64,000 bases of DNA. Origin: Microbacterium testaceum StLB037 (GTDB lineage Bacteria; Actinomycetota; Actinomycetes; Actinomycetales; Microbacteriaceae). The position numbers and the translations under genes are program-made. The DNA lies in assembly GCF_900104345.1 (NCBI RefSeq), contig NZ_FNJN01000004.1, forward strand, positions 62,802-126,801, read 5' to 3'. A model generated the notes under the pieces. That model worked only from the letters and a program-made list of their open reading frames with translations, made no database searches and was not told the DNA's origin. Positions 29,097 to 45,277 of this stretch are shown in pieces (the stretch's first letter is position 1; each line of letters opens with the position of its first letter).

Positions 29097-29399
29097 TCAA
29101 CACAGTGTGCGCCCGAAGGGACTCGAACCCCTAACCTTCTGATCTGTAGTCGCGCCGACCCGGCCACGGCCCGCGGGAACCGGCTCATAGCCAGCTCCGG
29201 GCAACAGATCGGTCACGGCGACCTCGAAGAATGCCGCGACGGCTAGCAGTTCGTCCAGCATCCAGGACCGGTCACCCGAGAGCTTCCGGCTTACCGACTT
29301 CTGCGTCGAGGCGAGCACGGATGCCAACGCCTCCTGCGAGATTCGGCGTTCGCGCATGATGTCACGGACCTTCTGTCCGGTGATGGCGTCGGCGTTCAT
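29097..29399 (-). CDS. Prophage immunity repressor (XRE family) whose 3' end crosses attL
   Basis: 100 aa in the prophage. Residues 5-68 are a Cro/CI-type helix-turn-helix domain (ISQEALASVLASTQKSVSRKLSG). The tail from about residue 82 is translated from the att core itself (TTDQKVRGSSPFGRT), then LC and a TGA supplied by host DNA at 29097-29099. In circular phage DNA the frame would instead continue through attP for 32 codons to 45133, giving 130 aa. GTG at 29408, with GGAG 4 bp upstream, is an alternative start (3 aa longer). Divergent from the rightward operon, with three operators between them. Repressor role is inferred from position and domain. Confidence 0.85.
   Translation of the reverse strand: MNADAITGQKVRDIMRERRISQEALASVLASTQKSVSRKLSGDRSWMLDELLAVAAFFEVAVTDLLPGAGYEPVPAGRGRVGATTDQKVRGSSPFGRTLC
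29107..29151. other. attL (45-bp core)
   Basis: 45 bp identical to 45233-45277 except T at 29145 for C at 45271. It is the 3' half of tRNA-Arg on the minus strand. The shared sequence continues outward as ACTGTCTCAACACAGT (29091-29106), matched at 45215-45230 after a 2-bp gap, so phage and host share the tRNA flank too. Confidence 0.92.
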
Positions 29400-29409
29400 G
29401 CGCGCCACA

Positions 29410-29504
29410 CTACTCCAATTTGGCGACACGCCGTGTGCAATCAATCCCGGCGTGTTACTCCGATTCGGCCTAGCTTCGTGCTCGTGACTAGACCGAATCG
29501 GAGT
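29410..29504. promoter_or_regulatory. Prophage immunity operators O1-O3
   Basis: Three copies of a 14-bp site CCRAATYGGAGTRR: O1 reads CCAAATTGGAGTAG on the minus strand (palindromic core 29415-29423), O2 CCGAATCGGAGTAA on the minus strand (core 29460-29468), O3 CCGAATCGGAGTGA on the plus strand (core 29493-29501). The cores are 9-bp palindromes. The GGAG inside O1 and O3 also serves as the ribosome site of the repressor and of the rightward gene, so repressor binding would cover both translation starts. Confidence 0.8.
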
Positions 29505-29509
29505 GAAGC

Positions 29510-29980
29510 GTGAGCCTCGAAGCGTACATATGGGCGGCAAACCTGCCGCTCAGCCGCTGCAACGGTACGCCCTTCCGTGTCCTCCTCCAGCTCGCCGACC
29601 GCACGGACGGCCTCGGATACGGCGCTTACCCTCACGTCTCGACCATCGCCGATGTCCTCGAATGCTCCGAGCGCACCGTCCAGCGAGCCCTTCGCGAACT
29701 CCTCGCCGCCGACCTCATTCGCGAGGGTGATCAGCGCTACGTCCAACACCTCGACTCGCGCTACCGCCCGACCGTCTACGACGTGCTCACGACGGCCCTC
29801 GTCTACACCGAATCCAGGGGTGACAACTCAGTCACCCCTAGCCGATTCAGGGGTGACAAAAACCGGCGCCCAGGGGTGACAACTGGTGTCGCACTAAGAA
29901 CCGCCCAAGAACCTACTTACCAAGACTCTCCTAGGGCTCTCACCTTGGTAACCGCGCAAGAGGTCGAGGAAGACCGATGA
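29510..29980 (+). CDS. Phage helix-turn-helix protein, first gene of the rightward operon
   Basis: 156 aa. Winged helix-turn-helix at about 15-80 (YGAYPHVSTIADVLECSERTVQRALRELLAADLI), a fold typical of phage and plasmid replication initiators and Cro-like proteins. The C-terminal half contains repeated SVTPSRFRGDK/RPGVTTG motifs translated from AGGGGTGACAA iterons. GTG start directly after operator O3. It is the only early gene able to serve in replication; a Cro-like role is the alternative. Confidence 0.75.
   Translation: MSLEAYIWAANLPLSRCNGTPFRVLLQLADRTDGLGYGAYPHVSTIADVLECSERTVQRALRELLAADLIREGDQRYVQHLDSRYRPTVYDVLTTALVYTESRGDNSVTPSRFRGDKNRRPGVTTGVALRTAQEPTYQDSPRALTLVTAQEVEEDR
29816..29882. 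repeat. Iterons inside the early helix-turn-helix gene, candidate phage origin
   Basis: AGGGGTGACAA occurs at 29816-29826, 29849-29859 and 29872-29882, with one inverted copy GTCACCCCT at 29831-29839. Spacing is 33 and 23 bp. Iterons within a replication-initiator-like gene are a common origin layout; operator sites for the same protein are the alternative. Confidence 0.6.
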
Positions 29981-30114
29981 GCGCACACGTCCACGATTTC
30001 GACCCCGTAAGCGGGTGGTGCTCGGGATGCACCGTCCGCGACGACGGTCGCCACCTCTGGCACGGCGGAGACGTGACCAGGCCTCGACCCACAGAACAGG
30101 GAGACGACCAATGA
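29977..30114 (+). CDS. Phage microprotein with WCSGC motif, 45 aa
   Basis: Begins with ATG overlapping the previous stop (ATGA) and ends overlapping the next start in the same way. Contains HDFDPVSGWCSGCTVRDDGR and HLWHGG, a possible small zinc-binding loop. Function unknown. Confidence 0.65.
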   Translation: MSAHVHDFDPVSGWCSGCTVRDDGRHLWHGGDVTRPRPTEQGDDQ

Positions 30115-30293
30115 AGCTCTACAAGCTCAACTCGCACAGCACCGCCTCGCACCCGACGCAGTACGTCTTGGTGCTGGCGGAGAGCATGCGCGAAGCCATC
30201 GCCGCAGCCCACCGTGAGCACCAAGACGTGATGTGGGGAACGAGCATCCCGATGCGCGATGCACGCGCCGACGAGACGTTGATCGAAGCATGA
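30111..30293 (+). CDS. Phage hypothetical protein, 60 aa
   Basis: Starts MKLYKLNSHSTASHPTQYVL with GGGAG 7 bp upstream; overlaps the genes on both sides by ATGA. The single helix AESMREAIAAAHREHQDV resembles small phage proteins of unknown role. Confidence 0.7.
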   Translation: MKLYKLNSHSTASHPTQYVLVLAESMREAIAAAHREHQDVMWGTSIPMRDARADETLIEA

Positions 30294-30562
30294 GCACCAC
30301 GATTGCCGCCGCGCGCGCCTTGTCCGACCTGGTGGCCACTGCTCGGGAACGAGGTCTGAACGCGCGCGAACTCGGCATCCAGCGCCCCGCGTACGGACTG
30401 CTGAACATCGCCATCGACCTCGACAGCGCTCGAACGCGCCTGATCCAGGAAGGCGACGACTATCTCGACGCCGCGTGGGCGTTCATCGACGCGGGTCGGA
30501 GGATGATCGCCGACCACTCGGAAACGATCGAGCGAGAGGTTGACCGCCGTGCTCGCGCCTGA
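30290..30562 (+). CDS. Phage hypothetical protein, 90 aa
   Basis: All-helical soluble protein (IAAARALSDLVATARERGLNARELGI ... TIEREVDRRARA). Start overlaps the preceding stop. No family recognised. Confidence 0.7.
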   Translation: MSTTIAAARALSDLVATARERGLNARELGIQRPAYGLLNIAIDLDSARTRLIQEGDDYLDAAWAFIDAGRRMIADHSETIEREVDRRARA

Positions 30563-30644
30563 TTCCATCCCGGCCATCCCGGGTCTCATCGTCGGTCTCC
30601 TGCTCGCCGTGCTCGTCATCCGCAAGGGCTGGTGGCGAGCATGA
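30549..30644 (+). CDS. Phage single-span membrane microprotein, 31 aa
   Basis: GTG at 30549 lies within the end of the previous gene; one hydrophobic helix (IPGLIVGLLLAVLVIRKGWW) fills the protein. Its TGA overlaps the next ATG. It could be an early membrane effector. Coding status rests on the unbroken overlap chain. Confidence 0.5.
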   Translation: MLAPDSIPAIPGLIVGLLLAVLVIRKGWWRA

Positions 30645-30799
30645 TCCGGGTTGCGCCCAGCGGTGAGTGGTGGGAGCAGATCAGGGAGTTCACCGGCCCG
30701 GGTCGCTACGTCGTAGCGGTCGTCCAGTGCAAGAGCAACGGGCACATCCGCAACGTCGCTCAGTCCACGTTCGACACCTGGCCCGAGGCGACGGCATGA
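30641..30799 (+). CDS. Phage hypothetical protein, 52 aa
   Basis: MIRVAPSGEWWEQIREFTGP..., a small beta-rich protein linked by ATGA overlaps to both neighbours. No family recognised. Confidence 0.6.
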   Translation: MIRVAPSGEWWEQIREFTGPGRYVVAVVQCKSNGHIRNVAQSTFDTWPEATA

Positions 30800-31226: not shown

Positions 31227-32852
31227 ATGACCACCCTCATCACCGGGGCTCCCCCCCTGCTCGCCGACCTGTGGTCCGAGGCGAACTGGCTCGAATGGCG
31301 CTCCCGCCTCGACGGCCTCCACCTGATCAGCAACCCCCAGCTCGTCACCACCGAGCAGACCCGCGGCGAGTTCATCGAAGGCGCGCGACTGCTCCGCCTT
31401 GACCACCGAGAGCGAGCGGGCGACGGCGGCAAGGGGCCGTCGCCGATGCAGCTCATGGTGGCCGATCTCCTCGCCGCGGGCGTGTTCATGAACGCCATTG
31501 ACGAGTCCCGCCGATCCACCAAGACGACCGCAGTGCAAGCCATCATGCTCGGGCGTTGCTACCACCGCGAGGACTACCAGGTCGGCTGGACGATGTTCAC
31601 GACCGGCGCCAAAGCGGGCGAGCGGTTCCGCAAGGACATCGTGGCGCATCTCCGCCGCCTGTACCCCGACGAGCGGGTCAGCCCCATCAAGATCAACGTC
31701 GGGAAGGGCACCGAGCACCTGGAGTTCCGCGACACCGGCTCGTTCCTCAACGTCTACACGCCCAACGGTGAGGGCTTCCGCTCCGGTGGCTTTGACTTCG
31801 CATTCGGTGACGAGGGCGCCGAGGCCGACCTCGACCAGGGCCAGGACGTCGAGCGCGCCGTTATCCCCACCATGGACACCAAGGTCGGCGCCCAGTTCGT
31901 CATCGCCGGGACCGGCGCCAAGTGGCGCACCGGCAATCTCCTCTGGCGAGCCCTCCACGACCCCGACGCCAACGTGCTCTGGCACGGCATCCCCGAGAGC
32001 ACCGACCGCGAGCAGCTCGCCTCCTGGGAGCCCGAGCTGCCGCACCCGCTCACCGGAGCCACCGGAGGTCGCATGCGCGAATGGATCGAGCGCACGCACC
32101 CCGGCGTGTCCTTCACCACCCCCATCGGCGCCGTCAAACGATCGTTCGACAAGGTGAGCCTGGACGACTTCCTGATTGAGTACGGCGGACAGTTCGGCTT
32201 CGAGGGTGCCGCTGACGCCATGATCCCGCCCGCCCTCTGGAAGCCGACCACCGAGCCGTTCCCCGCCGAGCTGCCCGCCCGCTGCTCCGTCGCGCTGAAG
32301 GTCCACCACCTCGGGCACGCGGCATCCCTCGCCATCGCGTGGGAGTACGAGGAGCTGAACGACCTCGTGGGCGAGGCGTTCGAACTCGAAGGCGTGCGCG
32401 AGAAACCCAAGCGCCGCGCCCTCGCGCTGTGGCACTGGCAACAGGGCACGCACGGCCTCGCGCGCGAGGTCATCGAACGCCTTCGCAGGCGCCCCGGCTT
32501 GACCCTCGGCTACGACAAGCGCGGCTACACCGAGGACATCGTGGAGAAGGAAATCGCCCTGGCTCAGCCCACACCGATCCTCCGCCCCAGCATCACGAAC
32601 GACATTCCCCGATCCGCCGTCGCCCTCATGAAAGGACTCGAGAACGGGTCCCTCGTGATCTTCGGACACGACCAGCTCAACGCCGCCGCCTCCCGCGCCA
32701 CCCGCCAGGCCTTCGGCAACTACGGCACCTGGCGATTCGGGGCGCCGAAAGATGATCCCGATTTCGACGTGACGCCCCTGGAGGCCGCAGCGCTGGCCCT
32801 CCACTGGCTCGAAGACACCACGCCCATCGCCTCCGCCGACGACTCGTTCTAA
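31227..32852 (+). CDS. terL: Terminase large subunit
   Basis: 541 aa DNA-packaging motor. ATPase domain with a Walker A-like segment at about 93-102 (ESRRSTKTTA) and Walker B at about 189-198 (FDFAFGDEGA). The C-terminal nuclease domain carries the acidic residues. ATG at 31227 follows an 89-bp gap, in which AATCGGAGT (31184-31192, minus strand) resembles the immunity operator. Confidence 0.9.
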   Translation: MTTLITGAPPLLADLWSEANWLEWRSRLDGLHLISNPQLVTTEQTRGEFIEGARLLRLDHRERAGDGGKGPSPMQLMVADLLAAGVFMNAIDESRRSTKTTAVQAIMLGRCYHREDYQVGWTMFTTGAKAGERFRKDIVAHLRRLYPDERVSPIKINVGKGTEHLEFRDTGSFLNVYTPNGEGFRSGGFDFAFGDEGAEADLDQGQDVERAVIPTMDTKVGAQFVIAGTGAKWRTGNLLWRALHDPDANVLWHGIPESTDREQLASWEPELPHPLTGATGGRMREWIERTHPGVSFTTPIGAVKRSFDKVSLDDFLIEYGGQFGFEGAADAMIPPALWKPTTEPFPAELPARCSVALKVHHLGHAASLAIAWEYEELNDLVGEAFELEGVREKPKRRALALWHWQQGTHGLAREVIERLRRRPGLTLGYDKRGYTEDIVEKEIALAQPTPILRPSITNDIPRSAVALMKGLENGSLVIFGHDQLNAAASRATRQAFGNYGTWRFGAPKDDPDFDVTPLEAAALALHWLEDTTPIASADDSF

Positions 32853-32864
32853 GGACCTCGCATC

Positions 32865-33083
32865 GTGAACACCAGCCCCATCAAACTCGACTGCTCGCCC
32901 GTATCCATCGTCGTGTCTTGCGAGGACCACCCGTGGTGGCGGTCCTTCCGATTTCACAAGGACGATGCCTGGGACAGTGCATGCGCGCACGAGGAGCGGG
33001 AGCACGGCGACGACCGCCGTCAACGCCACGCCCGCGACGTGCGTCGCGCTCGCGCCCGGGAGGTCGCCATTAGTGAGATGTGA
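32865..33083 (+). CDS. Phage hypothetical protein, 72 aa
   Basis: Small protein with SCEDHPWWRSFRFHKDDAW and an RRQRHARDVRRARARE basic tail; conserved Cys/His spacing hints at a zinc site. GTG start after the terminase stop. Such genes between terminase and portal are common in small actinophages. Function unknown. Confidence 0.6.
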   Translation: MNTSPIKLDCSPVSIVVSCEDHPWWRSFRFHKDDAWDSACAHEEREHGDDRRQRHARDVRRARAREVAISEM

Positions 33084-33107
33084 CTAAACGTCCGCATGGT
33101 TTGAAAC

Positions 33108-34175
33108 GTGGGAATCTTCGGGCGGAACATCGACAAGACGTACGGGTCACGGGCGGCGCTGCCGCTCGTGACCCCGTTCGCTCCCCAGGACAACCTAGTG
33201 GAGGTCGTCGCCCGAGACCTGTGGCCCGAGCACGAGGCGCCGAAGACCGTCACTCGCGACACCGCCCTCCGCATCCCCGCCGTCAAGCGGGCACACGACA
33301 TTCACTGCTCCGTCCTCTCCCGCCTCCCGTGGCGGCAGTACGACAAAGACACCGAGGTCGCCGTACAGCCCGAGTGGCTCGTCAACTCCCGCACCGGTAC
33401 CGGCCCCCGCCAGCTCCGCTGGGGCGTCACCTCCGACCTGTTTATCCACGGCTGGGCCGCAATCGGCTTCACCATGGACAGCCCCGGCAAGCCCACCGAC
33501 GCGCTGCACGTCCCCTTCGGCGCGTGGTCTGTCAACGAAGCCGGACGCATCGACGTAGACGAGCAGCTCGTGCCCGCCCAGTACCGCGAACTGGTCATCG
33601 CCATTCCGCTCGGCTACGGCTCCCGCGGCATGCTCACCGACGCCCGCGACTCGCTCATCGCCGCGCGGTTCATTGAAGCCGCCTACCTCGACCGCGTGGA
33701 GAACCCGATCCCGGCCACGGACATCGAGCTGTCCAAGGAGTACTGGAACGCCTGGGGCAAGGAGGAGCGCGAGTCGTTCCGTCAGACCTACATCAAGAAC
33801 CGCCAGGCCAAGAACGGCGCCGTGTCCATGCGTCCCGAGTACGCCAAGCCGAACTACTCCGGTGCCGTCGAGGTCGGCCTGTTCGAGTCGGCTCGCAACG
33901 GCGTACGCCTCGACATCGCCAACCACGCGGGCATCCCCGCGTCAATGCTCGAAGGCTCCCGCCAGGGCGGCGGAACTGACATCAAGTACTCCGGCGTCAA
34001 CAATGGCGCCGACCGCAACGAACTCTGGGACTTCGGCCTCGACAAGTACGCCTCCGCCATCGACGACCGGCTCTCCCTGGACGACGTGTGCCCCTCTGGC
34101 GAATCGATCCGCGTGGACGCATCCCGCTACCTCACCGCTCCCAATCCGACCACACCCCAGACAAGCGAGGACTGA
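33108..34175 (+). CDS. Portal protein
   Basis: 355 aa, HK97-type portal that forms the DNA channel at the capsid vertex. Supporting stretches are TALRIPAVKRAHDIHCSVLSRLPW near the N-terminus and LDIANHAGIPASMLEGSRQGGGTDIKYSGVNN in the stem/wing region. Short for a portal but the position after terminase fits. GTG start at 33108. Confidence 0.85.
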   Translation: MGIFGRNIDKTYGSRAALPLVTPFAPQDNLVEVVARDLWPEHEAPKTVTRDTALRIPAVKRAHDIHCSVLSRLPWRQYDKDTEVAVQPEWLVNSRTGTGPRQLRWGVTSDLFIHGWAAIGFTMDSPGKPTDALHVPFGAWSVNEAGRIDVDEQLVPAQYRELVIAIPLGYGSRGMLTDARDSLIAARFIEAAYLDRVENPIPATDIELSKEYWNAWGKEERESFRQTYIKNRQAKNGAVSMRPEYAKPNYSGAVEVGLFESARNGVRLDIANHAGIPASMLEGSRQGGGTDIKYSGVNNGADRNELWDFGLDKYASAIDDRLSLDDVCPSGESIRVDASRYLTAPNPTTPQTSED

Positions 34176-34178
34176 CCC

Positions 34179-34448
34179 ATGGCAAACACCAGCAAGCCCG
34201 CCGACTCCACCGAGACTGAAACCCCGCCTGTCGCGGTTCCGCAGCTTCCGCCCGAGCTGGCCTCCCGGTTCCTCACCGAGACCGAGCCGGTGACAGGCGA
34301 CCAGGCCGCAGTCATCCGAGCCAACGCGTATGCCCTCGCCCTGGCCGCGGAGCAGATCGTGATGCTCCCGAACAGCCGCGAACGCTCTCTCGCGCTCACC
34401 GCGCTCGAAGAGGCGCTCATGTGGGCCAACAAGGCGGTGTTCGCGTAA
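34179..34448 (+). CDS. acb2: Acb2/Tad1-like cyclic-nucleotide sponge (anti-CBASS/Thoeris)
   Basis: 89 aa. After a disordered Pro/Thr-rich N-terminus (1-28), residues 30-88 match the helical-hairpin domain of Acb2/Tad1 proteins: F...PVTGDQAAVIRANAYALA, then the signature NSRERSLALTALEEALMW with ANKAV. Known Acb2 hexamers sequester cyclic di- and trinucleotides made by CBASS enzymes. It sits in the structural operon between portal and capsid, overlapping the capsid start by one base. Family call from the signature; binding activity is inferred. Confidence 0.8.
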   Translation: MANTSKPADSTETETPPVAVPQLPPELASRFLTETEPVTGDQAAVIRANAYALALAAEQIVMLPNSRERSLALTALEEALMWANKAVFA

Positions 34449-36205
34449 TGGAACCTGTCATCATCGACGCGGGCACGCTGACATTCTCGGATGCCGACAT
34501 GACCGCAACCGGACTGCTCATCCCGTACGGCGTGCAGTGCCGCTCCAACCTCGGCATGTTCACCTTCGCCAAGGGCGACGTGACCATTCCCACCGACTTC
34601 ACCGGCATGTCCCTCAACATCGAGCACCGCCGCGAGAGCGTTGTCGGCGGCTTCGTCAACGCCTGGGAGCAGGACGAGGGAACTTTCGGCACGTTCAAGT
34701 ACGCCGACACCCCCGCGGGACGCCAGGCCTACGCGGACGGTAAAAGCGGTAAGCGCAAGAACCTCTCCGCAGAGGTCGCCAACGTCCGCATCCAGGGCGG
34801 CAAGGCCCTGCCCGGCGCGAACCTCTTCGCCGCCGCCCAGGTCGAACGCCCCGCCTTTGAGGGCGCGACCCTTCTCGCCGCGGAGGACACCCCCTCCTCG
34901 GACTCGTACACCGCACCGGACGCCGCCAGCTCCAGCCGGTACGTCACGCAGTTCACCGACGACCAGGGCGTCAAGTGGTCCCGCGTCGAGGAAACCACCA
35001 GTACCACCACGGTCACCAAACTCTCCGACGCTGACGAGGCAGACGAGCCCAACCCCGACGACAAGCCCGCAGAAAAGGAGACGACGTTGAACGCCAGCGC
35101 CATCGAATCGCCCCTCATCACCGTCCCGGCCACCTTCCTCGGCTCCGCACCGCGCGGCTCCAATGGCCTCGTGAAGGCCGCAGACATCGACCTCGGGACC
35201 GTGTTCGCCGCCATCCACGCCATCAAGGCCAAGGTCCCCGGCGCGGTCCAGGACGCCGAGACCCTCCTCGCCGCCCTGGCCGACATCAAGTACGACACCG
35301 CGGGCGGGCTCACCACCGCGGGCTCCGGCATCCTCCAGCCTGCCTGGGTTGGCAAGCTCTGGCAGGGCCGCCGCTACCAGCAGAAGTACATCGACCTCGG
35401 CACCCACACCTTCGGCGGCATCCAGCTCGGCGGACGCAAGGGCTACACCATGAACGCCGGAGCCGAACTCGTCCAGTCCTGGGCGGGCAACAAGGCCGAC
35501 ATCCCGTCCGGCTCCGCCACCACCGCCACCCGCGCCAGCACCCTCCGCAAGTACGGCTGGGGAGCCGACATCGCCCGAGAGTGGTTCGACCTCGAAGGCG
35601 GAGCCGATGTCATCGAAGAGCTGATCAAGCTCGTAATCGACAGCTACGCCCGCGTCACCGACCGCGACGCACTGTCCGACATCTTCAAGATCGCCTCCCA
35701 GGGCGACGGCGTTGCGCTCTCGCGCACCATCGCACCCAACGCCCTGCCCGCCGGCACTCCCGCAAACAGCGCGTACTACCCCGCCGCGGTGCAGCTCATC
35801 CAGGCCATCGAAGCCGTCACCGACGCTGACGACACCCCCACCTTCGCCGTCGTCAACCCCGTCGCCTGGGCGCAGCTCATCTACACCCCGAAGGACCTCC
35901 TGCCCGAGTTCGTTCAGCTCTCGGTCAGCGTCGGTAACGGCGAGGCGGGCGTGGACGCGGCCAGCGGCAAGGTCGTCGTCAAGAAGGCTCCCCAGGCCTA
36001 CTTCCCCGGCACGAAGACCACCGACCCGCAGGTGGTCGCCGGAGCCAAGGGCGGCATCGAGTTCAAGGAGCAGGGCACCACGCCCATCAGCCTCGAAGCG
36101 CTCGACATCGCCCGCGGCGGCGTGGACCGCGCCAACGTCGGATACCTGGAGACGTTCAACGTCCGCCCGGAATCCTTCGCCTTCGTCGGCACCAAAGCCG
36201 CCTGA
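34448..36205 (+). CDS. Fused capsid maturation protease and major capsid protein
   Basis: 585 aa. Residues 1 to about 150 resemble a phage prohead protease (GLLIPYGVQCRSNLGMFTF; SLNIEHRRESVVGGF with the catalytic-type His; NLSAEVANVRI with Ser). A Ser/Thr/Asp-rich linker (about 150-215) follows. From about 220 the protein has HK97-type capsid features (delta-like ETLLAALADI, QPAWVGKLWQGRRY, ATRASTLRKYGWGADI). One chain thus supplies both protease and shell subunit. No frameshift separates them. Confidence 0.85.
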   Translation: MEPVIIDAGTLTFSDADMTATGLLIPYGVQCRSNLGMFTFAKGDVTIPTDFTGMSLNIEHRRESVVGGFVNAWEQDEGTFGTFKYADTPAGRQAYADGKSGKRKNLSAEVANVRIQGGKALPGANLFAAAQVERPAFEGATLLAAEDTPSSDSYTAPDAASSSRYVTQFTDDQGVKWSRVEETTSTTTVTKLSDADEADEPNPDDKPAEKETTLNASAIESPLITVPATFLGSAPRGSNGLVKAADIDLGTVFAAIHAIKAKVPGAVQDAETLLAALADIKYDTAGGLTTAGSGILQPAWVGKLWQGRRYQQKYIDLGTHTFGGIQLGGRKGYTMNAGAELVQSWAGNKADIPSGSATTATRASTLRKYGWGADIAREWFDLEGGADVIEELIKLVIDSYARVTDRDALSDIFKIASQGDGVALSRTIAPNALPAGTPANSAYYPAAVQLIQAIEAVTDADDTPTFAVVNPVAWAQLIYTPKDLLPEFVQLSVSVGNGEAGVDAASGKVVVKKAPQAYFPGTKTTDPQVVAGAKGGIEFKEQGTTPISLEALDIARGGVDRANVGYLETFNVRPESFAFVGTKAA

Positions 36206-36223
36206 GCGTCGGGAGCGTAGGAC

Positions 36224-36583
36224 ATGGCCAACGCCAAGTGGTACACCACGGAAACCGACGCGGAGCGTACGCGCCTCCGCGCCGCGTGGGGGGACGCACC
36301 GATCGAGAACCTTGACGTTCTCGAACAGCTCCTCGACACCGCCAAGGAACAGGTCATCGCCTACGCTCCCACCGCTCTCCTGGACCCCGAGACCGGCCAG
36401 CCCGTCTACCCGGCGCGGTACGCGCTCGCGCAGCTCATGCAGGCCACCAACCTGTGGAACGCCGGACGGGTCACCAGCGCCGGGGACATCGGGGACGGTT
36501 CGTACGTCTTCACCCCTCGCCCCATGGATAAGACCATCCGCGGCATCATCCGCCCCGAGGACGGGAAGCCCGACATTGGGTAA
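36224..36583 (+). CDS. Head-tail connector protein
   Basis: 119 aa, mostly helical with ALAQLMQATNLWNAGRVTSAGDIGDGSYVFTPRPM near the C-terminus, as in gp6/gp15-like adaptor proteins. ATG after an 18-bp gap. Role assigned by position and helix content. Confidence 0.75.
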   Translation: MANAKWYTTETDAERTRLRAAWGDAPIENLDVLEQLLDTAKEQVIAYAPTALLDPETGQPVYPARYALAQLMQATNLWNAGRVTSAGDIGDGSYVFTPRPMDKTIRGIIRPEDGKPDIG

Positions 36584-36953
36584 CGCACGCACACGCCTCG
36601 CCGCGCTCATCACGCCCATGCTCCCCGCCGACTTCCGGGCAAACGTCAAGCCCTACACCGTCCGCGCCATCGGCACGCTCTCGGCACCCACCGTCTTCAT
36701 CGACTACACGCGCATCACCCACGACGGCATGCCCCAAGGGGCCATGCTCGACGGCTTCGACATCGCGCTCGTGTCGCCCCTCACGGACTTCGCGAAAGCG
36801 GAGGACTACCTGGACCCCGCCGTCCGCGAGTTCGTCCGCGCCATCGACCCCGCCCCCGACCTCGCATGGTCGGAGACCAACAAACGCGAGCTGTCCGAAT
36901 ACCTCGCGTGGGTCGTCACCGTCTCCTTCCCGACCGCCTCACACCAGGAGTAA
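36576..36953 (+). CDS. Head-tail connector or tail-terminator-like protein
   Basis: 125 aa, alpha/beta. Begins at TTG 36576, overlapping the preceding stop; this is the only start that covers the conserved-looking NARTRLAALITPMLPADF. The order connector - this gene - tail tube points to a tail terminator or stopper. Family not certain. Confidence 0.65.
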   Translation: MGNARTRLAALITPMLPADFRANVKPYTVRAIGTLSAPTVFIDYTRITHDGMPQGAMLDGFDIALVSPLTDFAKAEDYLDPAVREFVRAIDPAPDLAWSETNKRELSEYLAWVVTVSFPTASHQE

Positions 36954-36958
36954 GCACC

Positions 36959-37360
36959 ATGCCCAAGATCACCAACACCGGTTACTACCCGGCTGGAACA
37001 CTCAGCATCGGCACCGACGAGTACACCCTCGCCATCGACTCCGCCGTGCTCACCCCCACCACGCCCACCACCGTCATCAACGACATCGGCGGGGGCGTCC
37101 AGCAGATCGCCGGAATCCCCGTGTGGGCGCTCGCCCTGAGCATCGTGCAGGACCTCGCCACCGCGTCGTCCTTCTCGCAGTACCTCATCGCCAACGCCGG
37201 TCAGATCAAGTCGGCGACGTACAAGCCCCAGGCCGGGGCCACCTCGAAGACGTTCACGCTCAACCTTCTCATCATCCCGGCGTCCATCGGCGGCGCGGGC
37301 GGCTCCGTCGCCAAGAGCACCGTGACGCTCCCCGTCAGCGGACAGCCCACCATCGCCTGA
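36959..37360 (+). CDS. Major tail (tube) protein
   Basis: 133 aa, rich in beta structure and Gly/Thr/Ser (GTDEYTLAIDSAVLTPTTP; GQIKSATYKPQAGATSK; STVTLPVSGQPTIA). CAGGAG lies 9 bp upstream of the ATG. Composition and position before the tape measure support the tube role. Confidence 0.8.
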   Translation: MPKITNTGYYPAGTLSIGTDEYTLAIDSAVLTPTTPTTVINDIGGGVQQIAGIPVWALALSIVQDLATASSFSQYLIANAGQIKSATYKPQAGATSKTFTLNLLIIPASIGGAGGSVAKSTVTLPVSGQPTIA

Positions 37361-37363
37361 CAC

Positions 37364-37852
37364 ATGCGAATCTCGCTCCTCATCGACGGGTCCCCGCTGG
37401 CCGTGCTCGCCACGGTCATGCGGGGCCTCCCGACCGACGTGAAGCGAGAGATCGGCACCCGCACCAAGGGACCCGCCGTGGACATGTGGCGCGAGGAGCT
37501 GAACGACAACGCCGAGGACCGCCGACAATTCGCCCTCGCCAAGTCCGGCACGGTCGGCGTCACCCAATCCAACGTCACGCTCCGAGCCGGTGGAGTTGGC
37601 CGCCTGTCCTCCGGGACGCCCGTTTCAGCCATCGCCAAGGCCACCGAGTTCGGTGCCAACGCCGACCAAAAAATCCTCACCCGCAGCCGCGCGGGCAAGC
37701 CGTACAAGCGCCGCCTCGGCCCCACCTTCGGGCCTCCCCGCCGCGGGGGCAAGGTCGCCTACCCCGCCGCCGCCAAGGTCATCGCCCGTGTGGCATCCCT
37801 GTGGATTCAGACCGCTTACCGAACCGTCTACGAGAAGATCGAGAGGCTTTGA
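37364..37852 (+). CDS. Phage tail-completion-like protein
   Basis: 162 aa, Arg/Lys-rich with KATEFGANADQKILTRSRAGKPYKR and a C-terminal helix; resembles HK97 gp10-type neck/tail proteins in size and composition. It stands where tail assembly chaperones usually are but has no slippery sequence. Assignment weak. Confidence 0.55.
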   Translation: MRISLLIDGSPLAVLATVMRGLPTDVKREIGTRTKGPAVDMWREELNDNAEDRRQFALAKSGTVGVTQSNVTLRAGGVGRLSSGTPVSAIAKATEFGANADQKILTRSRAGKPYKRRLGPTFGPPRRGGKVAYPAAAKVIARVASLWIQTAYRTVYEKIERL

Positions 37853-37853
37853 C

Positions 37854-39125
37854 GTGGCCCGCAACCCCATCGAAATTCCGATTGCGTCGGAGACCGGGGC
37901 CTTCGAAAAGGGCATCAAGTCCGGCGTCATCGAGCCGGTGAAGGACGCTGAGAAGGCGCTAAAAAACCTCGCCGAGGTTCGCGGACCCGACCAGCTCGAG
38001 AACGACCTTCGGGACGCGCAGCGCCAGACTGCCAAGCTCGCCGACGAGACCGACCGCACCGCTAAGGCCATCGAGAAGGACTTCAAGCGCGCCTACCGCG
38101 AGGCCAAGGAAGGCGCCGATTCCGTGGGCGACTCCGGGCGCGCCGGATTCGGCAAGGTCCGCGAGGGCGCGCAAGAGGTCACCCAGGAAATCGGGTCGAA
38201 CCTCGGCGAGGCAGTCTCTAGCATCCGCGGCGACATGAGCGACCTCGGCCAGGTCGGCCAGGACACCCTCGGCGGGCTCGCTGCCACCCTCGCGAGCGCC
38301 GGTCCCGCGGGCATCGCCGGTGCCGCAGCTCTCGCCGCGGGAGCCGTGGGCCTCGGCCTCGTCACTTCCGAGCTGGAGAAACAGGGCGAACAGGCCGACC
38401 GGCTCCGCGACCGGCTCGCCGGTGCCTACCAGGAGGCCGCCCAGGAGGGTCGCCGCTACCTCGACGTTTCTCAGTACATCGCCGAGGCGCAGGACCTCAT
38501 GTTCAACACCGAGCGCGCCGACGAGTGGAAGCAAATCCAGGAGGACGCCAACACCCTCGGCATGGACGTGGGCGACGTGATCCGCGCCAACGCGGGCGAC
38601 CTCGAACAGCAGCAGCGCGTCCAGGAGCGCATCAACGCGCTACTCGATGAGGCTCAGTCCAAGAGCGGCGCGGGCGACGGACTCGCCAACATCCTCCGCA
38701 ACGCCGCCGACTCCGAACTTGCCGTGAAGGGCCTGGAGAAGGTGAGCGATCGGTGGGGCGACATCAACGCCGTCACCGAGGAGAACGCCCGCAAGACCGA
38801 AATCGCGAACGACGTGGTGAGCGGCTACTACCAGGAGGCCATCCGCAAAGCGGGCCTCGCCGAGACCGCCACCGATCAGTTCGGCAACAAGCTCTACGAG
38901 CTGCCGGACGGAAAGCAGGTTGTCATCGACGCCGACACCGGGCGAGCAACCGACGACGTGTCCCGGTTCAAGGGCGACATCAACGCCGCCACCCAAGCCC
39001 GCACCGCCATGGTGCGCGTCAACATCGACGACTCCGCCTGGCGCAACTGGAAGCCCGGCGACAAGATCGGCAACGTCCGCACGGCTGTAGCGCCCGGTGG
39101 CGCAGGCGGGACCACGTGGTACTAA
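37854..39125 (+). CDS. Tape measure protein (short)
   Basis: 423 aa from GTG 37854. Long coiled-coil helices (about 15-110 and 180-330) surround a hydrophobic segment (about 140-172, GGLAATLASAGPAGIAGAAA). This is a typical tape-measure layout. The short length implies a short tail, roughly 60-65 nm at 1.5 Å per residue. Confidence 0.8.
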   Translation: MARNPIEIPIASETGAFEKGIKSGVIEPVKDAEKALKNLAEVRGPDQLENDLRDAQRQTAKLADETDRTAKAIEKDFKRAYREAKEGADSVGDSGRAGFGKVREGAQEVTQEIGSNLGEAVSSIRGDMSDLGQVGQDTLGGLAATLASAGPAGIAGAAALAAGAVGLGLVTSELEKQGEQADRLRDRLAGAYQEAAQEGRRYLDVSQYIAEAQDLMFNTERADEWKQIQEDANTLGMDVGDVIRANAGDLEQQQRVQERINALLDEAQSKSGAGDGLANILRNAADSELAVKGLEKVSDRWGDINAVTEENARKTEIANDVVSGYYQEAIRKAGLAETATDQFGNKLYELPDGKQVVIDADTGRATDDVSRFKGDINAATQARTAMVRVNIDDSAWRNWKPGDKIGNVRTAVAPGGAGGTTWY

Positions 39126-39472
39126 TGCCCGCAACCATCGCCAGCTCCGTCGCCACGCTCACCCCCGCGGCCCTCTCGAACTACACCGCCGACCAAGACG
39201 GCGGGTCGATCCTTCACGACATCCTCGGACGCACCGAAGACGACATCACATTGCGCCCGGCAGGAATGCGCAAGGGCACCATGACACTCGACTTCGCCAC
39301 CGACGCCCTCGCCAACGCCGCCCGCGTGAGTCTCGGCGCCGCCGCCGTGTGGACCCTCACCCACACCGAGCGAACCACCGTGAACATGCGATTCGTCGTC
39401 CGCCGCCACGGACGCGAGGTCGCCGGCGACGGTCGCTACGCCGTGCGCGTGGACTTCGAGGAGGTCCCGTGA
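39125..39472 (+). CDS. Minor tail protein (distal tail-like)
   Basis: 115 aa, beta-rich (TLRPAGMRKGTMTLDFATDALAN; TTVNMRFVVRRHGREVAG). ATG overlaps the tape-measure stop. Position suggests a baseplate or distal-tail part; no family assigned. Confidence 0.6.
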   Translation: MPATIASSVATLTPAALSNYTADQDGGSILHDILGRTEDDITLRPAGMRKGTMTLDFATDALANAARVSLGAAAVWTLTHTERTTVNMRFVVRRHGREVAGDGRYAVRVDFEEVP

Positions 39473-41166
39473 CCGTCTCCACCCACACCTACACCGCCGT
39501 CGTCGTCGGAACTCCCAACCGAGACCTGTCGATCCGCGGTGGAGGAGTGACCCTCGACACCTCGCGCGCGCCGTTCGTCACTGGAACCATTCAGGTCGCC
39601 ATGCCGGGAACCGTCACGCTCGCCGCGCTCGACGTCCGTACCTCCCCGCCGCCGCGCATCCTCATCACGGCCACCAGCGTCATCGACGGCGTGACGCAAA
39701 CTCGCGTGTTCAACCTCACGCTCCGGGACCGTGTGATCGCGTTCCGCGACGGGACCATTGGGCTCCCCGTCTCGTCAGACGAAGCTCTCGTGCTCGACCA
39801 CGCACCGCTCGCCGACGATGAGGCACTGTTCACCCGCCAGGGCTCCCTTCGCTCGATAGTCGCCTACGTCTTGGGAAAGGCCATCCCCGGCGCGACACTC
39901 GCCGCAGGGCCCGACCAGGCCGTCTCCGTCTACGCCGACGCCACGAACGAGATGATCAACCCCGCCGCCGCGGTTGACCTCACCGGATGGAATGCAACCA
40001 ACCTCAACACCTTCACCCGCGCCACTGTCCAGGCCTGGGCCGCGAACAGTAACCAGACCGCATTCAACCTCCGTGGCACGGCCAACACCGACTCCTACAT
40101 CGACACCGCCTTCGCGGCCCCCGGCATGGCCGGACGGAACTACCTCCTGCGCGCCCGCCAGCGCACCACCGGCATCGCCCTGCCGTCTGCTAACGCGGGA
40201 CGCCTCCGCGTGTTCTACAGCACCAACGGCGGCGTCACCTACTGGCCCCTCGCCGACGCCTACGGAACCTCCGCCGCGAACACCACCGCCGACGTGTCGA
40301 TGCGCGTCGGGTTCCCCATCGGAACCACGCACATCATCGTCCGCGCCTACCACGGCTTCAACAACGACCAGTCCGTCCTCTGGTCTGACTTCCGACTCAG
40401 CGAGTACACCGGCGATCCCACCGACCTTGCCTACTTCGACGGCAACACACCAGGCACCACCGGCTACCTCTACACCTGGAACGGCGCCGCTGGGCTGAGC
40501 ATCACCCGCCGCCGCGCGCTCATCAGCCGCGACCCCGAAGCCCTCCTGTGGAAAGCCGGACAGTCCGGGCTCCGCCTCCTGGCCTCGCTCGTGCAAGCCC
40601 TCGGTCTGCGCCTCGTGTGCGACGAGACCCGCACATGGTCGCTTCGAGCGGAGGGATACGCCGCCCCCGGCGCCCTCGCCATCCGCCACGGCGTCAACCT
40701 CATCGACGCCGACGACAGCATTTCCCGCGACGGGGAATCCTGGTTCGACGCCGCCGTCACCGTCTACCGGTGGACCGATCGAAACGGCGACCGGCAAGAA
40801 CGCCGCGACACCTACGCCATGGCGGGCTACAGCCGCCTCCGCACCTTCGAACGGGAGATGCCCTACCCCGGCCCCGGATTCAGCCAATACGCCGTCAGGC
40901 GGGCGCAAGGCCGCGGGCGCGAGGTCACCGCCGCCGCCGTCGCCGACTGGCGAGCGCAAGCCGAACAGGCCATCACCGTCGTCCTCGAAGGCGCCCCCAT
41001 CCAAACCGGCCAGACCAGCCGCGTCGATTTCAGCTTCGACCGCGACGAAATGACCGTGACCACCCGCACCACCGACACCCCCGCCGCCGCATGGGTCCTC
41101 ATCCCCTCCGGTAGCAAATGGACCGACCAGCCCACGGGCGGGTCCTGGACAGGAGAGGCAATCTAA
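39469..41166 (+). CDS. Minor tail protein with carbohydrate-binding-like insert
   Basis: 565 aa. N-terminal beta region (about 1-140) and C-terminal tail-hub-like part (about 355-565) flank a jelly-roll-like insert (about 155-345: NEMINPAAAVDLTGWNATNL, NTDSYIDTAFAAPGMAGRNY) of the carbohydrate-binding type, which could touch the host wall. GTG start overlaps the preceding stop (GTGA). Confidence 0.75.
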   Translation: MTVSTHTYTAVVVGTPNRDLSIRGGGVTLDTSRAPFVTGTIQVAMPGTVTLAALDVRTSPPPRILITATSVIDGVTQTRVFNLTLRDRVIAFRDGTIGLPVSSDEALVLDHAPLADDEALFTRQGSLRSIVAYVLGKAIPGATLAAGPDQAVSVYADATNEMINPAAAVDLTGWNATNLNTFTRATVQAWAANSNQTAFNLRGTANTDSYIDTAFAAPGMAGRNYLLRARQRTTGIALPSANAGRLRVFYSTNGGVTYWPLADAYGTSAANTTADVSMRVGFPIGTTHIIVRAYHGFNNDQSVLWSDFRLSEYTGDPTDLAYFDGNTPGTTGYLYTWNGAAGLSITRRRALISRDPEALLWKAGQSGLRLLASLVQALGLRLVCDETRTWSLRAEGYAAPGALAIRHGVNLIDADDSISRDGESWFDAAVTVYRWTDRNGDRQERRDTYAMAGYSRLRTFEREMPYPGPGFSQYAVRRAQGRGREVTAAAVADWRAQAEQAITVVLEGAPIQTGQTSRVDFSFDRDEMTVTTRTTDTPAAAWVLIPSGSKWTDQPTGGSWTGEAI

Positions 41167-42050
41167 TGGCCACCGGAGACGACGCCCTCGCGGCAGGAAT
41201 GGACGTGGTGCCCGGCACCGCAGACCGCCGCCTCGGGTACGAAGAGATCAACAAGACCCGCGACTACATCGCCCAGCGGACGGCCACCGTCACGCCCGTC
41301 AGCAAGGGCGGAACCGGCGCGACCACCGCCGCGCAGGCGCGCGCCAACCTCGACGTGGCACCTGCCAGCGAGGTCGGAAAGCGAGCATCCATCAACGCCC
41401 TGGCGCAGCCGTTCGCCGTCGCACAGATTGAAACCAACCCCGCGCACCAACTCGGCATGTACTACAGCGACGGCGCCGCCCGCCCCGTCGTTCGCGTGGA
41501 CCAGACGGACATCACCCTGGCATCCAAGGGCGACACGGACGCCGCCCTGACCGCCGCCAGCAACGCGAGCAGCAACGCGGACGGACGTGTGGCCAAGGGC
41601 GGGGACACGATGACAGGGAACCTGTTCCTCCCGAACTCCACCGCAGCCACCGCGAGCTGGCAGGTCGCCTACATCAACGGTGACGGGCGACTCTGCCGAG
41701 GTTCGTCCTCGCAGCGCTACAAGAAGTACATCAGCGCCTTCGAGCCCGAAGCTCTCGGCGACATCTGGCCCGCTCTCCAGCGCTACCAGATGCGCTCCGA
41801 CGGCATCATGCCCGGCGACGGCAAGTGGCACTACGGCTACATCGCCGAGCAGATGTCACAGCACCCCGACCAAGACCGTTTCGTCGTCTACCGCGACGTG
41901 GACGACACGGGGGAGCAGGTGCCCGACTCCATCGACTTCATCGGTCTCCTGCTCGCCCAGACGGCACAGCTTCACGAGCAGCTCGCCAACGCCCTCGTTG
42001 GCCTCGACCTGGCCCACCAACGCATCGCACAACTGGAGCAGGGCGCATGA
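41166..42050 (+). CDS. Tail fibre with S74 intramolecular chaperone
   Basis: 294 aa. Fibre motif SKGGTGATTAAQAR at about 46-59, GGDTMTGNLFLP at about 145-156, and a C-terminal S74 autoprotease/chaperone domain from about 178 (GSSSQRYKKYISAFEPEAL, with the Ser/Lys pair) to the end coiled coil. S74 domains trimerise the fibre and then cut themselves off, so the mature fibre would be about 180 aa. Confidence 0.88.
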   Translation: MATGDDALAAGMDVVPGTADRRLGYEEINKTRDYIAQRTATVTPVSKGGTGATTAAQARANLDVAPASEVGKRASINALAQPFAVAQIETNPAHQLGMYYSDGAARPVVRVDQTDITLASKGDTDAALTAASNASSNADGRVAKGGDTMTGNLFLPNSTAATASWQVAYINGDGRLCRGSSSQRYKKYISAFEPEALGDIWPALQRYQMRSDGIMPGDGKWHYGYIAEQMSQHPDQDRFVVYRDVDDTGEQVPDSIDFIGLLLAQTAQLHEQLANALVGLDLAHQRIAQLEQGA

Positions 42051-43161: not shown

Positions 43162-43167
43162 CGCAAG

Positions 43168-43198: not shown

Positions 43199-43212
43199 CG
43201 TCGTCCTCGGTG

Positions 43213-43407
43213 CTACGCCGAGAGCTTGCCGTTGCGGCGGTTCGCCTCCTTGATCGCCGCATCCACCGTGCCATCCGCGACGGCGACGGCGTGTGCTCGC
43301 ATGCCGCTCACGATGGCCGCGCGAACGATCCAGTAGAGAGCGGCAAGCGACACTGCTACGCCGATCAGCCACACGACGATTGCCCCTAGGTAGTCCTCAT
43401 TGCTCAT
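43213..43407 (-). CDS. Phage small membrane protein, 64 aa
   Basis: One long hydrophobic stretch (about 8-34, GAIVVWLIGVAVSLAALYWI) and a basic C-terminus. AAAGGA 7 bp before the ATG. It follows integrase by 12 bp on the same strand, so it is likely expressed in lysogens and could alter the cell surface or infection by other phages. Function unknown. Confidence 0.7.
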   Translation of the reverse strand: MSNEDYLGAIVVWLIGVAVSLAALYWIVRAAIVSGMRAHAVAVADGTVDAAIKEANRRNGKLSA

Positions 43408-43419
43408 GCGCGCATCCTT

Positions 43420-44391
43420 TCATGTCACCGGGGCCAGGCGTGCGCCGACTCTCGACGCGCCCTCCACGATGGCTCGCTTGCGATCGTTCGGCAGATAGAC
43501 GTACACCTTCACCATGTTGATATTCGCCCAGCCCATTAGGTCGGCGACCACGTAGGCGTCACCCTCGGCAGCGACCCAGAACCGCGTAGCGGCACGGTGG
43601 CGCAGCTTATGCATGGTCCACGGGTCGCCGAGTAGCCTCGCGACGCGCTTGCCAACCCACTGCGGGGACACGTGGCCGTCGTCCTCGCCGCGGAACAGGT
43701 AGCCCTTACCCTGCTCCTCGGCGCGCGCCAGCAGCGCCTCCGCCATGGCCCGAGTCAGCGGCACCTCGCGCACCTTGCCTCCCTTGCTGTGGACGATCAG
43801 GTCATGCCCGAGCAACGTCGGCACGATGTCGCGGGACCCGATCACGGCCACCTCGGCGCGGCGTAGGCCGTGCTCCGCTGCCAGGTCGATCCATAGCCGC
43901 TCGTCCTCGTCGGCGCGCGCGAGCGCCGCCAGGTAGATCGAATCCGGCACCGGCCTCGGGCGAGGGTCGGACGGCTTCACGCGCGCAATGTGATCGACCG
44001 GACTCGACGGCGTGCGACCCGTGGCGACCGCCCAGGCGTAGAACGCCTCGAACGTGTTCCGACGACCGCGGCGCGTCTCTTGAGCCCAGTTCATCGACGC
44101 CATGTATCCGGCGACATCGTCCGTCGTGACGGCCCACGGGCCGGTGTAGACGTTCTTCGCCAGGTGCCCCAGGTGTTGCGCCCACGACTTTCGCGACGAC
44201 GCCGCCTTGCCCGCTGCAACCTGCCCCAAGAGAAACGCTTCGATAGCGTCCCCCCACTCCTCAGTGACTCGCACCGGTCCCCCTGTAATTCCTGTGTCTG
44301 ACATTGGCGAGTCAGGAAAGTAGAACATGTGTTCGATTGCGTGCGGCTTCGTCTGCATCACGGTCGAATAACGGCACGCTGGCGACGGCAC
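43420..44391 (-). CDS. int: Tyrosine-recombinase integrase
   Basis: 323 aa from the first start; ATG at 44304 (294 aa) is a plausible alternative and neither has a good ribosome site. N-terminal SAM-like core-binding domain (about 45-125) and catalytic domain with Arg177 (AEHGLRRAEV), Lys in the SKGGKVREVPL hairpin, His261-x-x-Arg264 (HKLRHRAATRF), Trp288 replacing the second His (LMGWANINM) and nucleophile Tyr297. It should join attP to the tRNA-Arg attB. Located 0.85 kb from attR. Confidence 0.93.
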   Translation of the reverse strand: MPSPACRYSTVMQTKPHAIEHMFYFPDSPMSDTGITGGPVRVTEEWGDAIEAFLLGQVAAGKAASSRKSWAQHLGHLAKNVYTGPWAVTTDDVAGYMASMNWAQETRRGRRNTFEAFYAWAVATGRTPSSPVDHIARVKPSDPRPRPVPDSIYLAALARADEDERLWIDLAAEHGLRRAEVAVIGSRDIVPTLLGHDLIVHSKGGKVREVPLTRAMAEALLARAEEQGKGYLFRGEDDGHVSPQWVGKRVARLLGDPWTMHKLRHRAATRFWVAAEGDAYVVADLMGWANINMVKVYVYLPNDRKRAIVEGASRVGARLAPVT

Positions 44392-44411
44392 GCTCCAGAT
44401 AGGCTCCAGGC

Positions 44412-44855
44412 GTGGAGGAATGGTGGGGAAGTTTGGCCTCCGACATCGTCGGTCAGGTCATCCTGCTGTTGGTGACCTCGTCGGTGACTTGGTACTTCGC
44501 GCGGCGAAACCGCGCGGTGTGGGTACTGGAGCATGTGCGTGACGAGGACTGGACCCTTACCTACCGCGGGTGGCGAACCGCGTGGGATGTTCAGATCAGC
44601 CAATTCGTCTCGCCGAGGGTTTCTGCGCGGATCGCCGACGGTAAAGAATTCAGACCCGTGCGCTCTGACTGGCAGCGCGATGACCGCACTATGGTGAACG
44701 GCTTTCAGCGGGGTGAAGAGCTGACCCTCATGTGGTACGACCGCAGGCGGCGCGTGGCGTCCATCCAAACTCGAGAGAGCGAGAGCCGCTATGAGGTGTC
44801 TGCGGCCGACGTGCGGCGAGGGCTTCTGAACCACCTCGTCAATCGCGGGGCTTGA
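44412..44855 (+). CDS. Phage membrane-anchored protein, possible lysogenic moron
   Basis: 147 aa from GTG 44412. One transmembrane helix (about 10-28, DIVGQVILLLVTSSVTWYFA) and a soluble cytoplasmic domain (ERVR/WVLEHVRDEDWTLTYRGWRTAWD; MVNGFQRGEELTLMWYDRRRR). It opposes integrase and the att-proximal gene. Such stand-alone lysogenic genes often mediate superinfection exclusion; this is inference. Confidence 0.65.
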   Translation: MEEWWGSLASDIVGQVILLLVTSSVTWYFARRNRAVWVLEHVRDEDWTLTYRGWRTAWDVQISQFVSPRVSARIADGKEFRPVRSDWQRDDRTMVNGFQRGEELTLMWYDRRRRVASIQTRESESRYEVSAADVRRGLLNHLVNRGA

Positions 44856-44860
44856 ACTGC

Positions 44861-45136
44861 TCAAGCTATGACCTTCTCTCGTACGGCGTAGCGCTCCTGG
44901 GCTGTCTGTCGCTTGATCCCGAGCGCCATGCCGATGTAGGCCCACGAACCGCGGCGCGCGTGCTGGCCTCGCACGGCAGTCACGATGGCCGCTTCGAGCG
45001 TGTCGCGCATGGCCACGAGTTGCCGCAGCTCGATCTCATCGGCTTCGGCGGTTCGGACGCCTGCGCGTCGGATCATCCGGTTGACGGCTTCGAGAAATTC
45101 GTCTGTCTCGCGCTCAACGCGCTTGCGACGGGTCAC
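44861..45136 (-). CDS. Phage helix-turn-helix protein next to attP
   Basis: 91 aa from GTG 45136 (GTG 45151 is an alternative adding 5 aa). Helical N-terminus and a C-terminal HTH-like SWAYIGMALGIKRQTAQERYA. In circular phage DNA its GTG overlaps the TGA of the extended repressor frame (GTGA), so the two would be coupled; integration uncouples them. Could be an excision or directionality factor or a lysogeny regulator. Confidence 0.7.
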   Translation of the reverse strand: MTRRKRVERETDEFLEAVNRMIRRAGVRTAEADEIELRQLVAMRDTLEAAIVTAVRGQHARRGSWAYIGMALGIKRQTAQERYAVREKVIA

Positions 45137-45164
45137 CGTGCCACCTCGCACGGGAACGAGAAAA

Positions 45165-45189
45165 GGGTGTCAGGGAAACCCTGACACCC
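45165..45189 (-). terminator. Phage-supplied terminator behind tRNA-Arg
   Basis: GGGTGTCAGGG (45165-45175), loop AAA, CCCTGACACCC (45179-45189), followed on the minus strand by TTTTCTCG. It ends the tRNA-Arg transcript in the lysogen. In the free phage it lies inside the extended repressor frame, 29 bp before that frame's stop codon. Confidence 0.88.
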
Positions 45190-45232
45190 CATGATGTCCT
45201 CAAAGAGGTCATCGACTGTCTCAACACAGTAC

Positions 45233-45277
45233 GTGCGCCCGAAGGGACTCGAACCCCTAACCTTCTGATCCGTAGTC
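45233..45277. other. attR (45-bp core)
   Basis: Right copy of the attachment core, within the intact tRNA-Arg gene. Differs from attL only at 45271 (C, the middle part of the anticodon region). Because the C must be host sequence and the extra AC at 45231-45232 must be phage sequence, the strand exchange took place between 45233 and 45270. Confidence 0.92.

Follow-up and report, generated by a model that had tools for sequence, protein, structure and literature searches.

The window analysed here, 64,000 nucleotides of the Microbacterium testaceum StLB037 genome (67% GC), carries a prophage of 16.1 kb (29107 to 45270) whose virion genes are read rightward. Its left end is occupied by a divergent repressor gene of the XRE/Cro-C1 type, whose leftward frame leads out of the prophage. 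The opposite end holds a leftward tyrosine integrase gene, an open reading frame (ORF) on the opposite strand and a leftward gene of 91 amino acids (aa), which adjoins an intact tRNA-Arg gene. The attachment (att) site of this prophage is located inside the repressor gene. An initial annotation of this DNA had proposed that lysogen and free phage make two different repressors, a short stable one and a long unstable one, as in the mycobacteriophage BPs.

The repressor frame starts at 29399 on the minus strand, crosses a 38-bp att core (29107-29144), in which it reads the sense strand of the tRNA, and terminates at a stop codon (29097-29099) beginning 7 nt past the core. This gives a product of 100 aa with the C-terminus TTDQKVRGSSPFGRTLC. 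The core is repeated exactly at 45233-45270, where it constitutes the 3′ part of a predicted tRNA-Arg (ACG) gene (45233-45306, minus strand), in agreement with the integration site annotated initially. The bacterial site, attB, overlaps the host tRNA-Arg gene, which is intact after integration. When the prophage ends were joined in silico to reconstitute the phage site, attP, the frame remained open for 32 codons past the core, through a phage-side tail (45133-45232, minus strand) up to a stop at 45133-45135, giving 130 aa ending in GRTYCVETVDDLFEDIMGCQGFPDTLFSFPCEVAR. Coordinates and frames of both products were re-derived and both proved right.

The choice of stop was attributed at first to two bases, AC (45231-45232), present on the phage side only, and this holds. 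The next 16 bp, ACTGTCTCAACACAGT, agree again between the host side (29091-29106) and the phage side (45215-45230), so that the change of stop is due to these two bases only. An empty site without AC was found in G347, a genome of the same species, to which the joined flanks of the window match over 257 of 260 aligned columns from 29044 on. The left flank, including the stop and the ACTGTCTCAACACAGT block beside the tRNA-Arg gene from which this stop derives, is therefore host DNA, and 45231-45232 are phage DNA. An ungapped comparison with G347 extending further left gave 45 mismatches in 220 positions, which are due to a single indel and to sequences that truly diverge past the host terminator. 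Of the 366 genomes searched in the genus, two have the phage-side junction pattern: that of the window and G136. The latter carries the same kind of prophage: its core copies agree over 45 bp, followed by the same two extra bases on the phage side and again by 16 agreeing bp. The exact junction had no match in IMG/VR, where trimmed records lack that end. Core, host stop and joined frame thus concur in silico on two repressor forms set by integration, as initially annotated, and that integration changes the repressor C-terminus can be stated with high confidence.

The identity of the leftward gene as a repressor was supported by profile searches (PHROG transcriptional repressor, E 3.7e-11; Pfam BetR and HTH_26 above cut-off). 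No match was obtained for the repressor sequence in the PDB, nor for the 130-aa form in the phage collection. Profile searches covered 10 proteins each, a subset of the prophage ORFs, and a second repressor elsewhere in the prophage is for this reason formally possible. The 91-aa gene (44861-45136, minus strand) begins with a GTG overlapping the stop of the long form by 4 bp (GTGA). Together with a 147-aa ORF on the plus strand (44412-44855), it accounts for the two genes said to separate repressor from integrase. The integrase itself (323 aa, 43420-44391, minus strand) matches the PHROG integrase (E 7.5e-32) and Pfam Phage_integrase profiles.

Searching the 366 genomes of the genus returned an integrase match in 136 and a repressor match in 24. 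From the best of these matches, a subset of both groups of genomes, we took 39 regions, which were scanned together with the window; a tRNA-end repeat was present in 27 of the 40. Nineteen elements, the window included, were worked up. The 13 repeat-less regions and G285b, G285c and G090 were left out, and G339, which has a helix-turn-helix (HTH) frame running into the core, was left unjoined, its core copies differing near the crossover. In all 19 an HTH repressor frame enters the tRNA att core (tRNA-Arg, tRNA-Asn or tRNA-Val), the prophage form is the shorter one and the joined form extends about 14 to 71 codons past the crossover. The repressor end lies opposite the integrase end in the 18 elements in which an integrase was found, none being present on the G285a contig. 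Four tRNA-Gly elements with related integrases (G193, G310, G002 and G314) showed, by eye, no HTH frame into the core.

Openness of the joined frame was rejected as evidence in its own right, and because a 30-codon opening comes too easily by chance in GC-rich DNA, we relied instead on the relatives and on a control based on start-stop overlaps. All 19 joined frames end in a 4-bp start-stop overlap, ATGA or GTGA, against 13 of the 38 first stops in the other frames of the same arms (Fisher p 5.7e-7, a value that overstates independence because the elements are related). An ORF of at least 50 aa begins at the overlap in 16 of the 19, that of the window being the 91-aa gene. With both layout and overlap in 19 of 19 elements, the repressor-att arrangement is, judged by sequence comparison, more than chance. 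In the window and G136, different XRE bodies are followed by the same core and by viral tails identical at 30 of 32 residues; from this, immunity domains appear to have been exchanged upstream of a fixed att-tail module.

Two orientations of the core were observed. Four elements, the window, G136, G085 and G277, form a sense class: their repressor follows the sense strand of the tRNA, and the intact tRNA is found at the integrase end. The remaining 15 worked-up elements form an antisense class, with the repressor reading the opposite strand and the intact tRNA placed at the repressor end. Among 18 hand-picked repressors of described phages and prophages, 14 were antisense, one (Microbacterium phage PensacolaC28) was sense and three had no T-arm motif; prophiGD43A-5, seen as a 36-codon remnant, stood outside this count. 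Across 55 repressor-match loci from the genus and the family, the stop lay inside a tRNA in 19, all antisense and 8 of them in the worked-up set, and outside the tRNA in 36, many of which are other XRE proteins. Repressor-like frames that stop in antisense tRNAs were seen in other genera of the family at L099, L101, L102 (tRNA-Lys), L104 (tRNA-Thr), L109, L112, L120 (tRNA-Met), L100 (tRNA-Val), L106 and L125 (tRNA-Asn), which suggests that the system is widespread in the family.

The sense-class frames avoid the host stop by one of two routes. A TGA in the host block would end translation in the window frame, and is avoided by the 2-bp phage insert. In the frame used by G085, G277 and PensacolaC28 the phage carries TGG; the host tRNA carries TAG, as seen in the two prophages (the PensacolaC28 host being unsequenced). 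The insert is located just outside the predicted tRNA gene (45233-45306) and the G-for-A change between the anticodon arm and the T arm; both would be expected to leave the tRNA working. The G026 element, whose integrase is 65% identical to that of the window, has an antisense core followed shortly after by a second, inverted copy in the sense orientation. This double core, derived from the same tRNA-Arg end, lies at G026:C1 near 1279750 (L075 about 13710-13815); the inverted copy is perhaps the trace of an orientation change.

Viral forms that can be read without any joining were found when related phages with attP in the repressor gene were sought, as had been suggested initially. PensacolaC28 (PP978844.1) has a gp20 of 137 aa with the tRNA-Arg core inside in the sense direction, and its gp19 overlaps gp20 as the 91-aa gene of the window overlaps the long repressor form. 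The window 91-aa gene is 51% identical to gp19 over 79 residues. In this 16.7-kb phage, the terminase (36%), portal (40%), capsid (34%) and integrase (41%) are identical to those of the window prophage to the extent indicated, the major tail protein matches as well, and the tail of gp20 contains an in-frame hairpin. PensacolaC28 differs from the window in using the other tRNA frame and in giving no match to the repressor body beyond chance. Its integrase (L159 13009-13885) is annotated as two ORFs in different frames, and the phage, which forms clear plaques, is called lytic in its announcement; this makes no mention of attP or of integration-dependent immunity (PMC11895466). Under integration-dependent immunity, a phage unable to integrate would be expected to be without active repressor (cf. 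PensacolaC28). Curtobacterium phage Barebow has a gp19 of 133 aa with an antisense core. In IMG/VR, the repressor of contig L178 shares 56% identity with that of the window and runs through the core to 140 aa with the integrase downstream; for these reasons the contig looks unintegrated. Two further records, L129 and L130, are of the sense class, with repressors 85% and 82% identical to that of the window, both ending TTDQKVRGSSPFGRTLC-stop. A metagenome-derived record with identical repressor and integrase may stem from a near-identical strain.

Immunity that depends on integration is already established in mycobacteriophages, and Broussard 2013 is said to be its founding paper. The short repressor of BPs is an active, stable protein, whereas the long one is degraded (PMC4557955); the mycobacteriophage systems are reviewed in PMC9262239. 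Similar systems were predicted in Gordonia phages (PMC5559632, PMC4929511), in Mycobacterium abscessus prophages (PMC8092301, PMC9934374) and, by in-silico joining, in Bifidobacterium prophages (PMC6109161). None was reported for Microbacterium in the literature passages searched (PMC9262239, PMC6109161).

The initial comparison with BPs is borne out as to the shared layout, and the nearest integrases in the phage collection include those of cluster G phages such as Angel. Angel (gp33/gp32), which we take to belong to the BPs group (cluster G), resembles the window in several respects: attP lies in the repressor, the target is tRNA-Arg, the stop is host-supplied, the prophage form is the shorter one, the integrase follows the repressor on the same strand and a 4-bp gene overlap comes after the long form. 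Two features had been missed, the inverted att orientation and the hairpin of the viral tail. The repressors of Angel, Taheera, Sneeze and RitVan read the antisense strand and end in -KAS, whereas that of the window reads the sense strand and ends in -VAR; the orientation of BPs, in which the tRNA is transcribed toward the prophage repressor, was thus not found. Unlike cluster G phages, the window also has a terminator-like hairpin in its viral repressor tail, and its repressor and integrase are set apart by two genes.

Other known systems share part of these features. The small Gordonia phages Jeanie, McGonagall, GMA5, Emperor and Coeur are of 16-18 kb with attP within the repressor, and in GMA5 one more gene separates integrase from repressor (passages of PMC5559632); the three repressors checked (Jeanie, Emperor, Coeur) differ from that of the window in being antisense and ending in -VAA. 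In Bifidobacterium tRNA-Met prophages, attP within the repressor was inferred by in-silico joining, as here (passages of PMC6109161). According to passages of PMC8092301, the M. abscessus prophages MabB, C, H, K, N and O have attP in the repressor and a stop at or near attL, the integrase is adjacent or 3 to 5 genes off and some lack ssrA-like tags; unlike in the window, the tRNAs of MabB and MabK are transcribed toward the truncated repressor, i.e. antisense. No T-arm motif was present in the repressor pieces of the two M. abscessus prophages examined. As regards the hallmarks of integration-dependent immunity, the window presents an attP core in the repressor frame, a restored tRNA attB, a stop in adjacent host DNA and, in the viral genome, a tyrosine integrase downstream of the repressor with two genes between, one on the opposite strand; the ssrA-like ends of viral repressor and integrase, typical though not universal, are absent. 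In the limited literature passages searched, we came across no mention of a sense orientation, of switches by 2 bp or one base, or of an in-frame terminator.

We consider it probable that the att site in the repressor gene makes integration an immunity switch, the host stop giving the 100-aa form and the viral frame a 130-aa form that would be inactive or short-lived. Recombination at tRNA-Arg would provide the repressor with a host stop; the resulting 100-aa form would bind the inverted repeats at 29455-29505 and shut off rightward (lytic) transcription. In the free phage, the frame would run on to the predicted 130 aa, sharing a transcript with the overlapping 91-aa gene, and this form would be removed by host proteolysis via its tail, through a signal other than an ssrA-like end. 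Immunity would then depend on integrase action, because the 100-aa form exists only after integration; by analogy with BPs, only the integrated phage would make active repressor (passages of PMC4557955, PMC9262239).

Several observations weigh against this interpretation. The attP of the window is an in-silico join, and where the frame crosses the tRNA its sequence is forced. The long form had been expected to be unstable by the known route, which the window does not bear out: the viral repressor ends in -EVAR and the integrase in -LAPVT, neither of them ssrA-like, and the tag of the host transfer-messenger RNA (tmRNA) is ANAKRTDFALAA, ending -ALAA. Among relatives, tag-like ends are present in G285a (-LAA), G152 (-SAA) and G171, G100, G016, G296 and G144 (-AS, also found in Barebow and Angel), the others being without. 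Since M. abscessus systems lacking ssrA-like tags have been described, with another signal presumed, absence of a tag alone does not exclude membership (passages of PMC8092301). The codon-position signal in the tails is weak: the window differs from G136 by 1, 2 and 3 changes at positions 1, 2 and 3, and from G085 by 5, 8 and 10, and of 15 tail pairs some had a third-position excess and others (G302-G144, G152-G076) none. The test was consequently set aside as support. Conservation of the tail peptide in the window, G136 and G085 was likewise discounted, since much of it translates a hairpin, GGGTGTCAGG...CCTGACACCC, one arm of which, GTGTCAGG, is also exact in G026 and PensacolaC28; part of the conservation would thus be that of a DNA hairpin and not necessarily of a peptide. 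Finally, in G136, the closest sense-class relative with the same tail, the integrase match (G136:C1:1516722-1517609, L080) contains one TAA stop, on account of which this prophage may no longer be active.

The forced tRNA part, the lack of a recognisable degron in the window tail, the weak codon-position evidence and the hairpin would equally be expected if only constraint were at work: in a compact genome where the repressor abuts attP, both forms might repress equally and the tail have no regulatory role. We hold this to be unlikely, as none of the 19 joined frames closes before reaching the start-stop overlap, and as the phage core departs from the host copy at places where a stop would otherwise arise, by the 2-bp insert in the window and G136, by TGG for TAG in G085 and G277, and in antisense elements of the TGA frame by the absence of the A after CTTCTG. 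That the overlap is fortuitous, an ordinary repressor having its true stop in host DNA and the phage-side frame being open by luck, would fit with a 30-codon opening not being rare in 67% GC DNA and with tRNA sequence often yielding such open frames. Such luck is very improbable, given that all 19 worked-up elements share the arrangement and that the long gene is annotated in both PensacolaC28 and Barebow, which are isolated phages. Hardly more credible is a decaying remnant that inherited the overlap from an active ancestor and no longer excises, the core, integrase, repressor and tested major virion genes being intact as ORFs and the identical repressor and integrase recurring in the metagenome-derived record (perhaps a near-identical strain).

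The hairpin of the viral tail (45165-45189, minus strand) lies within the repressor frame upstream of its stop and resembles a terminator. The 91-nt stretch around it folds with a z of -5.2, and none of 200 shuffles was as stable. A terminator-like in-frame hairpin before the viral stop was found in all five sense-class tails and in two of 17 antisense tails, both poor (Fisher p 0.0008), a contrast to be taken as exploratory since the criterion was chosen after the window hairpin was known and some rows are related. Shuffled sequences reached the criterion in 0 to 30 of 100 cases per tail, and single hairpin matches are not significant. In the four sense-class prophages, a terminator-like hairpin of the host follows within about 80 nt of the short-form stop; that of the window (29051-29087, minus strand) lies directly past it.

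These data are compatible with the viral-tail hairpin replacing the tRNA's own terminator, displaced by the prophage, and with the same hairpin also cutting the repressor message before its stop, which would lead to trans-translation. As known from arfA, a message cut before its stop hands the protein to trans-translation. In the sense class, integration could then exchange a terminator before the stop for a stop before the terminator, a genuine trans-translation switch needing no encoded ssrA-like tag; we put this forward tentatively and think it rather doubtful. In the virus, the intrinsic terminator before the repressor stop would generate stop-less transcripts, whose repressor product would be tagged by host tmRNA; after integration, the order would be host stop, then host tRNA terminator, leaving the repressor untagged and stable, and the hairpin would also serve as the replacement terminator of the tRNA. 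Translating ribosomes might suppress the viral-tail terminator.

The layout of an integration-dependent switch thus recurs in small Microbacterium prophages and probably in other genera of the family. What differs here from the known systems is the sense orientation, the lack of an ssrA-like end and the in-frame terminator-like hairpin. The attachment site is found in both orientations inside repressors, some of which have a common tail, and either of two minimal edits to the tRNA end that the phage copies, insertion of 2 bp or change of a single base, suffices for a conditional host stop. The sense class raises the question of whether an untagged repressor is still integration-dependent, via trans-translation.

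Between the repressor and the rightward early genes, from which it diverges, lies an inverted repeat (29455-29505; arms 29455-29473 and 29488-29505), a candidate operator, with a third, degenerate half-site (2 mismatches) at 29412-29423. A promoter scan gave no promoter-like match. At the corresponding position, L129 and L130 have, by eye, a different, diverged repeat, as would be expected if operator and repressor change together. The first rightward gene (29510-29980, plus strand) encodes a replication-initiation-like helix-turn-helix protein (PHROG 1032, E 6.8e-17; Pfam HTH_36). In the virion region (31227-42050, plus strand) PHROG matches identified the terminase, portal, major capsid, major tail and a tail-fibre-like ORF; the ORF at 37590-39125 had no PHROG match. 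The 147-aa ORF (44412-44855), on the strand opposite to the adjoining integrase, had no Pfam match and shows, by eye, a hydrophobic stretch near the N-terminus; it is possibly a lysogeny-expressed gene.

Some elements of the survey had features of their own. A third copy of the tRNA-Arg end lies about 10 kb left of the G085 prophage (G085:C3 near 43110; L084 8063-8122), perhaps from a tandem second element; it gave no repressor frame. In G285a (G285:C175 10633-12025, L071) the core copies are only 1.36 kb apart and the joined tail ends in -CYGLAA, near a host-type tmRNA tag end. The G339 element (G339:C1 region, L154), of 8 kb, has a related integrase and an HTH frame that enters a tRNA-Asn core in antisense, and may be a satellite or a remnant. 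In G296 (G296:C21 17300-17335, L081), a long palindrome was observed directly before the core inside the repressor coding sequence, which could be the terminator of the opposite-strand tRNA.

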